From: Myroides odoratus
Lineage (GTDB): Bacteria; Bacteroidota; Bacteroidia; Flavobacteriales; Flavobacteriaceae
Length of the DNA: 64,000 bases
Reading direction: 5' to 3'
NCBI RefSeq assembly: GCF_001549985.1
Contig: NZ_LROZ01000009.1
Location: 1-64,000, forward strand
Shown: positions 1 to 34,145 of the stretch, piece after piece
Layout: each line of letters begins with the position of its first letter
Position numbering within the stretch: the first letter of the stretch is position 1
Program-made: the position numbers and the translations under genes
The notes under the pieces: generated by a model
Database searches by the model: none
Told to the model about the DNA's origin: nothing
Seen by the model: only the letters and a program-made list of their open reading frames with translations

Positions 1-291
1 ACAGCTCCTATTTTTTGTATTTCAATCCAAGGCCAACACAAAAATATTTACGCCAAATACAAGCTGTCTAAAAAAATAAATAAAAGTTCAATTTAGACAA
101 AGCATCAAAAAACAACAGCTCTTATTTTTTATATTTCGTACGAAGTACAACACAAAAATTTTTACGCCAAATACAAGCTGTCTAAAAAAATAAATACAAG
201 TTCAACTTAGACAAAGCATCAAAAAACAACAGCTCTTATTTTTTGTATTTCAATCCAAGGCCAACACAAAAATATTTACGCCAAATACAAG
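1..291. repeat. 114-bp tandem direct repeat, 2.5 copies
   Basis: Unit 1 is 1-114, unit 2 is 115-228, and unit 3 begins at 229 and matches to 291 before diverging. Units 1 and 3 differ at one base over their shared 63 bases. Unit 2 differs from unit 1 at roughly a dozen positions, most of them in one 12-base block (137-150 region). Read on the minus strand, each copy contains the end of a similar short reading frame (CIWRK-FCV-L--KYKK, then stop), so the array could derive from duplicated gene ends. The array may continue left of the window. No spacer/repeat architecture typical of CRISPR is seen. Confidence 0.85.
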
Positions 292-539
292 GCAAAATTT
301 CCATCTTCCCTTTTGTTACAATCCCCTCACATTTTAAATATTCTTCATCAAAGTACAGCTCCCTTTTTTTAGGCCAACGACAACGCGAAAAAAAATAAGA
401 AAACCTCGTTTTAATTTTCGTATACCTATCTTCTGGCCGAGTAAAAAAATATACGCAAACTACAGAGCGCAAAAAAAATAAAAATCTTTTCAAAAAGACC
501 ATTCAACAACAAAAAACAACAAGGAAGAAAAATTTAGAC

Positions 540-1004
540 TTATCAACGTTATCAACACTATAAATAATAGAATTAAAATCTTTTTAAAAATTAAAAAAAA
601 ACTTCTCTATTATATTGTTTGTTAATATGTACAATAACTTTTAAGCCAGAATTTGCAGATTTGACTTATAAAAACTTATTAACAGCTTATCATTTCTTAA
701 AACGCTTGAAAATAGCTTAATAGCTATCTTATTAACACGGTTAATAACCGTTATCAACAGCCTGTTTAATATAACTTGGGGTGTGTATTTCTGTTGATAA
801 GTGGTGAATGGAGTATGGATATCTAGCTAATAGAATCTAAAAAATAAATTTGCACAACTCTTACTTTGTGCTGTATTGTAATTTATTTCAATAAAACAAA
901 AAATACTTATTCTATTCTTTCCATACTTATCAACAAAAACTGTTGATTTAGTTTTCCTTCATTATCAGTGAATTAGCCTCTTTAAAAAAGAACCTTGTTG
1001 ATAA
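540..1004. other. candidate chromosomal replication origin (DnaA-box cluster)
   Basis: Nine-base boxes TTATCAACA (one change from the classic DnaA box TTATCCACA) occur on the + strand at 549-557, 751-759 and 927-935, with TTATCAACG at 540-548. They occur on the - strand at 792-800 and 996-1004. Relaxed versions lie at 676-684 and 729-737 (TTATTAACA) and 941-949. A 15-base palindrome (737-751) sits exactly between two boxes. The surroundings are very AT-rich and gene-free. Known: origins are gene-free AT-rich regions with clustered DnaA boxes. Inferred: this is oriC. dnaA is not in the window, which does not exclude the call because Bacteroidota origins need not flank dnaA. Confidence 0.6.
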
Positions 1005-1396
1005 GTGTTAGTATATTGTAAATCAAGTATTTATTGATTTTTTTGTACTTGAAACATTTTAGCTCCTAGTAAGAATTACCTGGTGTTTTTTCGTTTAATT
1101 GGGATAAAAATCACCCAGAATAAGGAAATAAATAAAAGAAAAATAGAGCATTTACGCGCTCATTTTTTGCATCAAAAATGAAATTTTAACCGATATTATT
1201 TGGGTTGATATGGTCAGAAGTAAGGGAAATAAAAGCGCTTTTATAAGGGAAAAAAATAAAAATATAGGTTACATTTTTTACTCAAAACTGCTTCTTTTTG
1301 GATCAAAAAAAGCCCTTTATAAAAGGAAAAATTCAATAGTAATAGTTGGATAATAGTTCCTATTTTTTTTCTTTCACGGGCTATTTTTTAAATAAA
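1005..1396. other. gene-free stretch right of the candidate origin
   Basis: No credible reading frame. It holds a 12-base palindrome AAAAGCGCTTTT (1231-1242). It also holds an imperfect inverted repeat: CTTTTATAAGGG at 1238-1249 against CCCTTTATAAAAG at 1313-1325. Their role is unknown; they could belong to the origin region. Confidence 0.5.
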
Positions 1397-1423
1397 AAAG
1401 CCTCGTCCATCGGACGAGGCTTT
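1397..1423 (-). terminator. intrinsic terminator of the halogenase-like gene
   Basis: A perfect 12-bp stem (1397-1408 with 1412-1423) with a 3-base loop. On the minus strand it is followed by a T-run. It lies about 30 bp past the stop codon of the minus-strand gene at 1452. Confidence 0.85.
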
Positions 1424-1451
1424 ACTTTATTATTGTATGCTGATTGGCCAT

Positions 1452-2687
1452 TTAAATGCCTTTTTCCATCTTAATTAAATGGGCCATATTGCGAATAACA
1501 CTGTTGTGTTTTAAGACAAATGGATTAGATTTATCCCAAACATAACCGGCCAAAACAGAACATATCTTGCGTTTCACGTCTGCATTTTCAGGTTGGTGGA
1601 AAAATAATTCTTGTAAGTTTCCGGTATACCATTCTTGAATATAAGTGGTGAAAACATCAATCCCCTCATTCATATAATCTTCATATTCTGTTTGCCAATC
1701 TACAGTTTCTCCTTGTAGTGTTCTATGAGCTAATTTAGCTGCTAACATACCTGATTCAGTCGCAAAACAAACACCAGAAGAAAAAACAGGATCTAAAAAT
1801 TCTGTGCTATTTCCAGTTAATACATAGCCTTCTCCAAACATTTTTGATACACTAGTAGAGTAATTCGATAGTTTTTTAGGTTCAAAATCAAAAGGCAATC
1901 CACCAAAGCGATTGATGTAAAAATCAGACAGATTAATGGCATTTTGCAAGGCTTCTGTCGATGTATGACCTAATTTTTCAATATAATCTGTAGGTCCTAC
2001 AATTCCCACACTTGTTTTTCCATTGGAAAAAGGAATGACCCAAAGCCAAACTTTGGTTTCTAGTATGTCAAAAGAAATTTGCGTTCCTTCTACTCCATCA
2101 GGTCTACGTTCATCTATAATATGGCTGAAAATTGCCGAGTGTGGGCTTAATTTTGATGCTGCATCTAAATGAAGCATACGCGGTAAAACACGCCCATATC
2201 CACTAGCGTCAATTAGAAATTTAGCGCGAATTTGAGATTCTTTTCCGTCAATATCTTGAAGGGTAGTTATTGAATCTGTCCCTTCAAATTGCACGTGGGT
2301 TACTTCTGTTTCAAATTGAATATCGATGCCTTTGCGCTGCATTTCATCCGTAATAGCTTTGTCAAAATCAGCACGAGGAATCTGCCAAGTCCAATCCCAA
2401 CCTGTAGAGAATTTATCGCTAAAGTCAAAAATACAGATTTCATTTCCTCGAATAAATCGCGCTCCTGGTTTCGGTTGAAAATTGTAGGTGTTCAATGCAG
2501 GTAGCAAATCTGCAGCTTCAAAATGATCCATAACACGAGGAATTAAGCTTTCCCCTACAACAATTCTAGGAAACTTTGTTTTTTCTACAATTTTAACATT
2601 TACGCCCATTTTGTGTAAGTAACTGCCTGCAACACTTCCAGATGGACCTGCTCCAATTATTAGAACATCGACATTTTCAATTGACAT
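1452..2687 (-). CDS. FAD-dependent halogenase / oxidoreductase, tryptophan halogenase family
   Basis: A 411-residue flavoprotein. The FAD Rossmann motif GAGPSG is at residues 12-17. The halogenase-type WxWxIP motif is W99-T-W-Q-I-P104. Lys73 sits in a KPGARF context like that around the active-site lysine of flavin halogenases. Flexirubin-type pigments are often chlorinated on an aromatic ring, so a role in chlorinating the pigment, or hydroxylating it if it acts as a monooxygenase, fits. It is divergent from the tyrosine ammonia-lyase gene across a 104-bp intergenic region with promoter-like elements both ways, so it is probably transcribed separately from the main operon. Substrate and true halogenase activity are inferred. 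Confidence 0.8.
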   Translation of the reverse strand: MSIENVDVLIIGAGPSGSVAGSYLHKMGVNVKIVEKTKFPRIVVGESLIPRVMDHFEAADLLPALNTYNFQPKPGARFIRGNEICIFDFSDKFSTGWDWTWQIPRADFDKAITDEMQRKGIDIQFETEVTHVQFEGTDSITTLQDIDGKESQIRAKFLIDASGYGRVLPRMLHLDAASKLSPHSAIFSHIIDERRPDGVEGTQISFDILETKVWLWVIPFSNGKTSVGIVGPTDYIEKLGHTSTEALQNAINLSDFYINRFGGLPFDFEPKKLSNYSTSVSKMFGEGYVLTGNSTEFLDPVFSSGVCFATESGMLAAKLAHRTLQGETVDWQTEYEDYMNEGIDVFTTYIQEWYTGNLQELFFHQPENADVKRKICSVLAGYVWDKSNPFVLKHNSVIRNMAHLIKMEKGI

Positions 2688-2689
2688 TG

Positions 2690-2723
2690 TTTGCTATTTA
2701 TTATGTTAATAGTATTAAATTTG
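2690..2723 (+). promoter_or_regulatory. Bacteroidota-type promoter for the flexirubin operon
   Basis: TTTG at 2690-2693 and TAAATTTG at 2716-2723 match the -33 TTG / -7 TAnnTTTG pattern, with 22 bp between. It lies about 70 bp before the ammonia-lyase start, giving a 5' leader of roughly 60 bases. Confidence 0.55.
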
Positions 2724-2766
2724 CCTCAGTTTTATGCACAAAATGAATGAGCATAAAATTATGATA

Positions 2767-2774
2767 CAAATATA
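2767..2774 (-). promoter_or_regulatory. -7 element of the divergent halogenase-like gene
   Basis: On the minus strand this reads TATATTTG, an exact TAnnTTTG match, about 80 bp upstream of the start at 2687. A clear -33 element at the right spacing is not seen. Confidence 0.4.
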
Positions 2775-2791
2775 ACTAATATACCAAGTTA

Positions 2792-4309
2792 ATGAACACG
2801 TTGAATGGTTTCTTATCTTTAGAAAATTTCATACAATATCTAAAGACTGAACAAGAATTAGTATTAGCTCCAGCGTTAAAAGAGCGAGTAGATGAAAGTT
2901 TTAATTTTTTAAAAGATTATGCGAAAAATAAAGTAATCTACGGTGTAAATACAGGATTTGGTCCTATGGCCCAATATCGTATTAAAGATGAAGAATGTGT
3001 TGCATTACAATATAATTTAATTCGAAGCCATTCTTCTGGAATTGGAAACCCCTTGAGCATTGAGCAAGTTCGCGCTGCAATTTTAGCGCGTTTGAATTCA
3101 CTTTCTTTAGGTTATTCTGGAATTAATTTGGAGGTTATTGAGTTGATGAAAACGTTATTGAATAAGGAAATTACTCCTCTAATTTTTGCACATGGCGGAG
3201 TTGGAGCAAGTGGAGATTTGGTTCAATTGGCTCATTTGGCTTTGGTATTAATAGGAGAAGGTGAAGTTTTTTATAAAGGCGAACGCAGAAGTACAAAAGA
3301 AGTATTTGAACTTGAAAAAGTAACCCCGATGCGCATTAGTATCCGCGAGGGAATTTCTTTGATGAATGGTACTTCAGTCATGACGGGGATTGGTATTTTA
3401 AATTGGAATAAAGCTCATATTTTATTGGATTGGTCGGTGAAAATTGCTTGTGCCATCAATGAACTAGTAGCTGCTTATGACGATCACTTATCTGCTGAAC
3501 TAAACGAGGCTAAATTGCACAAAGGACAACAATATATTGCCCAGCAAATGCGTCAAAATTTACAAGATAGTCAGTTGATTAAAAAAAGAGAGGAACACCT
3601 ATATAATGGTACCAATCAAGAAGAAATCTTCAAAGATAAAGTACAAGAGTATTACTCCATTCGTTGTATTCCTCAAATTTTGGGTCCTATATACGATACC
3701 ATTCAAGAAGTGGGTAAAGTTCTTGAAAATGAAATGAATTCAGCCAATGATAATCCTGTTATTGACGTTAAGAGTCAACAGGTATATCACGGTGGAAATT
3801 TCCATGGAGATTATATTTCGTTGGAAATGGATAAATTAAAATTGGTGGTTACGCGATTGACGATGTTAGCGGAACGCCAATTGAATTATTTGCTCAATGC
3901 TAAAATTAATGAACTATTGCCGCCTTTTGTCAATCTTGGAAAACTTGGCTTTAACTTTGGTATGCAAGGAGCGCAATTTACAGCAACTTCTACTACTGCG
4001 GAATGTCAAGCATTAGCTACTTCGATGTACATTCACAGTATTCCAAATAACAATGACAATCAAGACATTGTGAGTATGGGAACGAATGCAGCAGTATTGT
4101 GTGATAAGTTAATTGAGAATAGCTTCGAAGTTATGGCGATTGAAATATTAACTTTAGTTCAGGCAATTGATGCTTTAGCTTATAAGGATAAGGTTTCTGA
4201 AACGACGAAAAAATGGTATACAGAAATTCGTCAGATTATACCTGAATTTTCAGATGATCAGGCTTTATATCCGTATTTACAACAGATTAAAGAATATTTA
4301 AAAGCTTAA
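2792..4309 (+). CDS. tal: tyrosine ammonia-lyase (HAL/PAL/TAL family)
   Basis: A 505-residue lyase carrying the Ala139-Ser140-Gly141 triad that cyclises to the MIO electrophile (context GGVGASGDL). It also has the family motifs YGVNTGFG (50-57) and NSANDNPVID. The sequence strongly resembles, by recall, the characterised Flavobacterium johnsoniae tyrosine ammonia-lyase. Deamination of tyrosine to 4-coumarate would supply the aryl starter of the flexirubin polyene. Like that enzyme it keeps a Ser79-His80 pair in the selectivity region, which is also seen in histidine ammonia-lyases. The specificity call therefore rests on context and overall likeness; histidine ammonia-lyase is the alternative. 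It is the first gene of the + strand operon, and the WG-repeat gene follows after 4 bp. Confidence 0.85.
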   Translation: MNTLNGFLSLENFIQYLKTEQELVLAPALKERVDESFNFLKDYAKNKVIYGVNTGFGPMAQYRIKDEECVALQYNLIRSHSSGIGNPLSIEQVRAAILARLNSLSLGYSGINLEVIELMKTLLNKEITPLIFAHGGVGASGDLVQLAHLALVLIGEGEVFYKGERRSTKEVFELEKVTPMRISIREGISLMNGTSVMTGIGILNWNKAHILLDWSVKIACAINELVAAYDDHLSAELNEAKLHKGQQYIAQQMRQNLQDSQLIKKREEHLYNGTNQEEIFKDKVQEYYSIRCIPQILGPIYDTIQEVGKVLENEMNSANDNPVIDVKSQQVYHGGNFHGDYISLEMDKLKLVVTRLTMLAERQLNYLLNAKINELLPPFVNLGKLGFNFGMQGAQFTATSTTAECQALATSMYIHSIPNNNDNQDIVSMGTNAAVLCDKLIENSFEVMAIEILTLVQAIDALAYKDKVSETTKKWYTEIRQIIPEFSDDQALYPYLQQIKEYLKA

Positions 4310-32633: not shown

Positions 32634-34145
32634 ATGGCTAATCAAGTTCGCGTGCGTTTTGCACCTAGTCCTACAGGACCTTTACACATTGGTGGTGTTA
32701 GAACAGCATTATTTAATTATTTATTTGCTAAACAGAATAACGGTGTTTTCTATGTGAGAATTGAGGATACAGATCAAAATAGATTTGTTCCTGGAGCAGA
32801 AGCCTATATTTTAGAAGCATTGGAATGGTTGGGTATTTCTCCTGATGAAACAATGGGAAAAAACGAAAAGTTTGGACCTTATAGACAAAGTGAACGCAAA
32901 GCATTATACCAACAATACGCAGACCAACTGATTCAAACAGGATGGGCGTATTATGCTTTTGATACAGCAGAAGAATTAGACGAATTGCGTAAAAAAGCAG
33001 AAGAAGCTGGGCAAACGTTTATCTATAATCACAGCAACAGAGAACAATTAAAAACGTCTTTGAACCTGTCAAAAGAAGAAGTAGATCAGTTAATTGCTTC
33101 TGATGTACCTTATGTCATTCGCTTCAAAACACCAGTAGGTGAAACCTTGTTGTTGAATGATCTTATCCGTGGGGATATTAAGTTTGAAACAAATTTATTA
33201 GACGATAAAGTATTATTTAAGAGCGACGGAATGCCAACGTATCACTTGGCGAATATCGTAGACGACCATTTAATGGAAACTTCACACGTAATTCGCGGAG
33301 AAGAATGGTTGCCATCTCTTCCATTACACGAATTGCTATATAAAGCATTCGGATGGGAAGCTCCTAAATTTGCACACTTGCCATTAATCTTGAAACCAGT
33401 AGGAAATGGTAAATTGTCTAAACGCGATGGTGATAAATTGGGATTCCCTGTGTTTCCATTAGATTGGCAAGACCCTATTTCAGGTGAGAAATCATCAGGA
33501 TACCGCGAAAAAGGATTCTATCCAGAAACCGTACTTAACTTTTTAGCATTATTGGGATGGAATGATGGTACTGATCAGGAAATTTTCTCTTTAGAAGAGC
33601 TAGTAGCAAAATTTGATCTAGGACGCGTGCATAAGGCTGGTGCGAAGTTTGACCCAGAAAAAAATAAATGGTTCAACCAGCACTATTTAAAACAGCAAAA
33701 AGACACAGATCTAGCGCAATCTTTCCAAGTAATCTTAAAAGAAAAGGGAATTGAAGCAACGGATGCCTATGTAGAACAAGTGGTAGCTTTAATCAAAGAA
33801 CGTGCAACCTTCGTTTCTGATTTCTTTGAATTGAGCGATTTCTTTTTCCAAGCACCCTCAGCGTATGATCCAAAAGCATTAAAGAATTGGAAAGAAGACA
33901 CCGCTGATTTGATGCAACAAGTGGCTCAAGTCATTGAGAACATAACTAGTTTCGAAGCGCTTGCAATTGAAAAAGAAGTGAAAGATTGGATCAATGAACA
34001 AGGTATCGGTATGGGGAAAGTCATGCAGCCACTACGCGTATGTGTTGTGGGGGAATTGAAAGGACCAGATTTATTTCAAATCATCGAATTGATCGGAAAA
34101 GAGGAAACGCTAAAGCGAATCAAGCAAGCAATTGCAACAATATAA
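32634..34145 (+). CDS. gltX: glutamyl-tRNA synthetase
   Basis: 503 residues, the usual length. The class I signature is PTGPLHIGGVRTA near the N-terminus and the KMSKS-equivalent is KLSKRDGD. It charges tRNA-Glu with glutamate in the cytoplasm. Because this genome also encodes GlnS (38181), GltX is probably discriminating. A strong terminator follows immediately, so it is a single-gene unit. Confidence 0.97.
   Translation: MANQVRVRFAPSPTGPLHIGGVRTALFNYLFAKQNNGVFYVRIEDTDQNRFVPGAEAYILEALEWLGISPDETMGKNEKFGPYRQSERKALYQQYADQLIQTGWAYYAFDTAEELDELRKKAEEAGQTFIYNHSNREQLKTSLNLSKEEVDQLIASDVPYVIRFKTPVGETLLLNDLIRGDIKFETNLLDDKVLFKSDGMPTYHLANIVDDHLMETSHVIRGEEWLPSLPLHELLYKAFGWEAPKFAHLPLILKPVGNGKLSKRDGDKLGFPVFPLDWQDPISGEKSSGYREKGFYPETVLNFLALLGWNDGTDQEIFSLEELVAKFDLGRVHKAGAKFDPEKNKWFNQHYLKQQKDTDLAQSFQVILKEKGIEATDAYVEQVVALIKERATFVSDFFELSDFFFQAPSAYDPKALKNWKEDTADLMQQVAQVIENITSFEALAIEKEVKDWINEQGIGMGKVMQPLRVCVVGELKGPDLFQIIELIGKEETLKRIKQAIATI

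Follow-up and report, generated by a model that had tools for sequence, protein, structure and literature searches.

The very probable chromosomal origin of a Myroides-clade bacterium carries a lineage-specific DnaA-box-like sequence that recurs as an in-gene array, a candidate DnaA sink

The window analysed here covers the initial 64 kb of contig C76 (132.9 kb in full), part of a draft genome (G000) of 4.09 Mb and 76 contigs. It begins with a 114-bp tandem repeat of 2.6 copies (positions 1-291, at the contig end), followed by a cluster of DnaA-box-like 9-mers at 540-1004, a gene block at 1452-32531 and gltX (32634-34145, plus strand). A sequence-only reading of this DNA, which had proposed a candidate chromosomal replication origin at 540-1004, described the region as AT-rich and gene-free and the genes to its right as lying mostly on the plus strand; both descriptions were confirmed, with an AT content of 74.8% over 540-1004. 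The gene block starts with halogenase-like and aromatic amino acid lyase genes and is presumably a pigment cluster; its first gene adjoins the origin region in G076, G359 and G158. gltX is the right-hand neighbor of the homologous region in G058, G219, G123, G020 and G259, and another gene block precedes it in the window's genome, G076, G359 and G158. The names gltX, ybeY, mnmG and those of other genes without a Pfam hit are ones that we presume from their sequences.

The cluster contains five exact TTATCAACA boxes and one TTATCAACG, whose previously reported positions were reproduced by our scan. A tandem pair on the plus strand (540-557) consists of TTATCAACG starting at 540 and an exact TTATCAACA starting at 549, and adjoins an AT-rich stretch. 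The remaining exact copies lie at 751-759 and 927-935 on the plus strand and at 792-800 and 996-1004 on the minus strand. Three relaxed boxes had also been claimed; besides TTATCAACG, two one-mismatch TTATTAACA boxes are present on the plus strand, at 676-684 (where L139 and L141-L143 have TTATCAACA) and at 729-737, and a third was not identified. The 15-base palindrome at 737-751 is real, though built of 7-bp arms around one unpaired central base. In the clade alignment it is kept only in L135-L138 and absent in L139 and L141-L143, and hence does not belong to the core of the origin. The tandem TTATCAACG-TTATYAACA arrangement is kept in all eight homologues read in register (L135-L139 and L141-L143; L140, mis-cut near a contig end, was left out), and box positions are conserved across the alignment. 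The AT-rich block at 548-642 (plus strand), in which AT reaches 90% in 60 bases, is the most widely matched part of the origin and a candidate DNA unwinding element. A DnaA-trio reading of 558-590, judged by eye, can be fitted to this AT-rich sequence in several frames.

The window holds six exact boxes against 1.32 expected, a number reached by none of 100 shuffles, and the genome holds 111 (66 + 45), compared with 38 + 47 for a reversed-pattern control. At a rate of 111 per 4.09 Mb, five exact boxes within 456 bp correspond to a Poisson P of ~2e-12 and are therefore far beyond chance. The box was said to differ from the textbook TTATCCACA at one base, so that a default search could miss it; the remark holds for the group, and a one-mismatch search would still detect the box. 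Counting the window's own locus, 26 loci matched, in some cases weakly; among them the tally is 23 for TTATCAACA, 23 for TTATTAACA, 20 for TTTTCAACA and 2 for TTATCCACA. The DnaA protein of this genome (L001:1075-2514) has alanine in domain IV at the positions of both E. coli P423 and T435 (numbering counted on the 1j1v alignment). Among 27 readable of 30 Bacteroidota DnaA loci, the first place is K in 25 and the second is S (19) or T (7), and one locus, L257, has alanine at both places like the window's genome. Both residues belong to the DNA-contact set named in a passage of PMC5043019. A link between these alanines and the TTATCAACA box is possible, and we offer it only as a lead. The same box also forms a pair, 20 bp apart, between genes that we take to be fmt-like and HU-like in five of five loci (L188, L191, L192, L196 and L197; ~1501-1529), with similar pairs also listed in other genomes of the genus, and the HU promoter may be a site of DnaA action.

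Homology and compositional skew both point to an origin at this site. Window positions 530-1015 matched strongly in 9 of 11 clade genomes (E 3e-27 or lower), with no convincing match in the other two, the drafts G336 and G296 (140-190 contigs; best E 0.006). A 621-base query returned some match in 44 of 101 genus genomes, many of the weak matches surely being something other than oriC, and none in 57; in 16 additional genomes of the genus the best match, at 73-78% identity, covered window 548-642 (query part 69-162/163). The sequence-only reading had suggested looking for the GC-skew minimum here, and a minus-to-plus change was indeed found at the homologous site in seven of seven relatives (six in one contig, G158 in two), as read from sampled stretches rather than whole-chromosome curves. 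Left and right skew in the adjoining 10 kb is -0.155 and +0.144 in G076 and -0.167 and +0.034 in G058; over 16.5-20 kb it is -0.086 and +0.078 in G219, -0.202 and +0.144 in G158, and -0.008 and +0.149 in G123; in the more distant G042 and G096 it is -0.120 and +0.073, and -0.106 and +0.145. The signal is uneven in places: the left side of G123 is weak (only -0.008 to -0.011), G219 is at -0.017 in the first 10 kb rightward and positive afterwards, and one G076 sample 50 kb leftward of the site is +0.044.

In the genome itself, the left flank of the origin has to be inferred, because the draft places oriC at a contig end. Contig C13 starts with ybeY and mnmG and also has the repeat that stands at the window's start (87% over 108 bases), which was found nowhere else in the 384 kb of own DNA compared. 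Since a similar 114-bp repeat stands at both contig ends, C13 and C76 probably adjoin there, meeting at the window start. Skew per 10 kb is -0.16 to -0.059 along the reversed C13 on the left and +0.053 to +0.154 in the window on the right. ybeY-mnmG also lies left of oriC in the three relatives examined for it (G058, G076 and G219). AT-rich tandem repeats with units of 93-114 bp are found on the ybeY side in the window (1-291), G058 and G219 (L016:204-1142; the end of L167); none was reported in the G076 and G123 loci, and only a short one in G158. dnaA lies on a separate contig (C6:38023) with no box cluster there, and Bacteroidetes origins are commonly far from dnaA according to a passage of PMC4755523. 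A plasmid origin was considered and rejected, window 1-3000 giving no megablast match among 72,556 plasmid records. We conclude that 540-1004 is almost certainly the chromosomal origin, oriC, of this Myroides-clade bacterium (Flavobacteriaceae). The origin itself is ordinary in kind, with a lineage-specific box that is useful for oriC prediction in Flavobacteriaceae.

Equally dense box clusters at many other sites had been named as a result that would speak against this assignment. Among 100 of the 111 sites listed, we found one such cluster, outside the window at C5:22163-22382 (L003:2163-2382), with five exact boxes on one strand, as many as at oriC in half the length. This C5 array lies inside a 210-codon ThiE-like gene located downstream of thiC, between what we take to be thiC and thiD, and a TPP riboswitch precedes thiC. 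The host gene matches Pfam TMP-TENI at 36.9 bits (cut-off 27), which identifies it as a ThiE/TenI family member and a putative enzyme. Its boxes fall in different codon frames, reading as YQH, VINN, LINS and LST, and the ThiE-like proteins of the clade carry ~14 extra residues relative to aligned homologues outside it, part of them encoded by boxes. Relative to a reference box at 0, boxes of the in-gene arrays start at -42, sometimes -20, 0, 32, 55 (minus strand), 86 and 125. In G058, with all 92 sites listed, only oriC and the array have at least four exact boxes in 500 bp, and one place, at 762 kb, has three; in G076 the same two places are the only ones with at least four among 100 of 115 sites listed. 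In these two genomes a convergent box pair with starts 11 bp apart was also observed (G058 C1:1624810-1624829; G076 C1:1732092-1732111), ~190 kb and ~229 kb from oriC, respectively.

The array has a narrow distribution. Of 398 genus genomes, 13 have a 41-base two-box core pattern (a reversed pattern matched none), and the array gene was detected by DNA similarity in 12, all of which carry the array; the thirteenth pattern carrier is G020. In a collection of 84,980 species, which may omit records near the window's genome, a three-box pattern returned 10 stretches, 9 of them within ThiE-like genes from records labelled Myroides or Flavobacterium. The window's genome shares the array with eight records of Myroides (M. 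odoratimimus, M. phaeus, M. marinus, M. pelagicus and the strains N17-2, NP-2, WP-1 and 1354) and with one MAG labelled Flavobacterium, and it is on this sharing that we provisionally assign the genome to the Myroides clade. The remaining stretch, in a Clostridiales MAG (L131), falls outside any reading frame of the size looked for, none of the listed box types recurs within 400-500 bp of it, and it is taken as chance. Among 30 ThiE-like loci, arrays occur in the three that belong to the Myroides clade; of the other 27, including the truncated L108 that gave no core, one contains a single TTATCAACA and two contain a single TTTTCAACA. A related-locus search with the ThiE-like protein as query found no relative. 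In the thiC tree, from which duplicate species records were left out and in which bootstrap values are not settled, two genomes without the array (G018 and G072) sit inside the 16-row group that holds the array carriers, and the array label needs two changes; a single gain is therefore not shown.

In G020 a natural loss of the gene allows the function of the DNA to be told apart from that of the protein. No ThiE-like hit was found there at E 1e-5, and thiC is followed directly by non-coding DNA in which stops interrupt each of the three sense frames. Eight boxes, five of them exact, nevertheless stand there at -63, -42, -20, 0, 32, 53, 85 and 124. The thiC tree groups G020 with G123, G296 and G158 (88/88), all of which carry the gene. 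The array outlived its gene, or at least can do without it. Two other clusters are present elsewhere in G020, one with three and one with four exact boxes (L233:9866-10025 and L234:9110-9271). The gene loss in G020 also bears on the reading in which DnaA at the in-gene array controls thi expression, perhaps as a roadblock to transcription, rather than initiation. Its appeal is that the array sits in genes behind a TPP riboswitch and that DnaA, as PMC11317965 describes, also acts as a transcription regulator; yet the boxes lie far inside the gene rather than at a promoter, and in G020 they remain without the ThiE-like gene and with the next gene on the opposite strand. We regard thi regulation as unlikely.

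Orientation and spacing of the boxes speak to what kind of element the array is. In all arrays read, G020 included, the exact copies are on the sense strand, as would be expected if UUAUCAACA repeats acted in the mRNA as an RNA-level element with no relation to DnaA. The same 9-mer is, however, the oriC box, present there on both strands, and a minus-strand TTATTAACA at +55 is conserved in seven of nine named arrays. Moreover, box starts in four arrays are helically phased, with a coherence of 0.75-0.90 at 10.5 bp that random placement matches in 0.00045-0.026; one-mismatch boxes were counted in, and the four arrays are related and so not independent. An RNA-level role is accordingly quite improbable, and a DNA element of the DnaA-box type is the preferred reading.

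The array also keeps its place relative to oriC. In five of five relatives (four in one contig, one in two), it lies 296-363 kb from oriC on the same arm, which is 0.080-0.095 of the chromosome. The homologous gene without the array lies 0.120-0.147 from oriC in three genomes, and the constancy of distance may thus be partly plain synteny, since the gene is oriC-proximal even without the array. Because the array equals oriC in number of exact boxes in half the length, it might itself be taken for the true origin, or for one of two. The skew samples contain no minus-to-plus change at the array: G076 is negative at 1.30, 1.60 and 1.75 Mb, G058 is positive at 1.65 and 1.90 Mb, and over the 20 kb around the array G219 is positive in both halves while G158 and G123 run from about zero to minus. 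The array is also missing from most of the genus sample, in which pieces of the oriC block are more widespread. Lying inside a gene and without the expected change in the samples, the array is not a likely second origin; we rejected this candidate on the sampled skew and give it almost no credence.

DNA-level selection on the array boxes is well supported. When synonymous codons were shuffled within the gene, the observed number of boxes was reached by 0-1 of 5000 shuffles in every one of the 15 genes, with averages of 0.22-0.85 boxes against 4-6 observed; in this set L113 gave no reading frame and the frame picked for L087 resembles the neighboring canonical ThiE, which leaves six sound comparisons among the seven outside genes. 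When the box columns were defined from G000 alone, codons for the same amino acid were identical to those of eight far species in 92 of 106 box columns versus 340 of 663 elsewhere. This definition supersedes a partly circular one, in which box columns were taken from all sequences and identity was 96% versus 58%. Taken by species, the codon test fell below P 0.05 in seven of eight, G219 (P 0.10) not being significant alone. The explanation that the boxes arose by chance, or are dictated by the protein and its codon usage in a region where Leu, Ser, Thr, Ile and Asn abound and shuffled genes still average some boxes, is contradicted by the shuffle and codon tests and by the survival of the boxes without a reading frame in G020; we rejected it and count it as scarcely tenable.

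The skew change, homology, gene neighborhood, conservation of the boxes and selective constraint on the array at the DNA level are computed observations, around which we propose the following working model. At oriC, the TTATCAACA-type boxes of either strand are very probably bound by DnaA, which the tandem pair at 540-557 probably loads onto the adjoining AT-rich block at 558-642. This block would then open, and forks would depart in both directions. The C5 array would be duplicated soon after initiation, and the duplicated array could take up DnaA and discourage re-initiation, either by simple titration or by datA-like hydrolysis of DnaA-ATP. The C5 array in all likelihood binds DnaA; by analogy with E. 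coli datA, we lean toward an oriC-proximal sink as its role. We consider the explanation as a whole, namely an oriC in the window plus a datA-like DnaA sink on C5, to be likely. A more speculative extension is that thiamine pyrophosphate, by governing transcription across the array, alters how much DnaA the array can bind and so ties vitamin status to initiation, the gene having died in one lineage while the array stayed; we think this improbable. Riboswitch-controlled transcription through the array would be a testable, if speculative, link, given that read-through affects datA in the account of PMC10950094.

If these proposals are right, Bacteroidota would have in this array a DnaA-sink candidate overlaid on protein-coding sequence, and with it an independent lineage for testing DnaA titration and oriC-proximal placement. 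Evidence on these in E. coli is described in PMC12371093 as lacking until recently. Among the top-ranked papers of a full-text literature search, mostly outside subscription journals, we found none on an in-gene DnaA-box array of this kind.

Compared with known systems, the window's origin resembles the Bacteroidetes-type oriC in its skew change, DnaA-box cluster, AT-rich block and distant dnaA, with mnmG nearby in relatives, and differs in that its box is TTATCAACA or TTATTAACA rather than TTATCCACA. The tandem boxes beside an AT-rich stretch at 540-642 are reminiscent of the BUS, the combination of tandem DnaA-boxes and DnaA-trios outlined in part of PMC8287927. The C5 array shares with E. 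coli datA a cluster of DnaA boxes about a tenth of the chromosome from oriC (datA is at 0.10 in Table 1 of PMC5010248) and a position beside transcription that may read through it; in E. coli, datA follows a tRNA operon whose read-through transcription affects it, according to PMC10950094. Known datA and DARS are non-coding, and transcription through them is called detrimental in part of PMC5010248, whereas every array read apart from that of G020 lies within a transcribed gene that codes for protein. Because of this difference, we class the C5 array as working like datA rather than as a datA. It likewise resembles the box clusters (DBCs) of Bacillus subtilis, reported to titrate DnaA in a passage of PMC5010248, and differs from them in being one main cluster, and a coding one.
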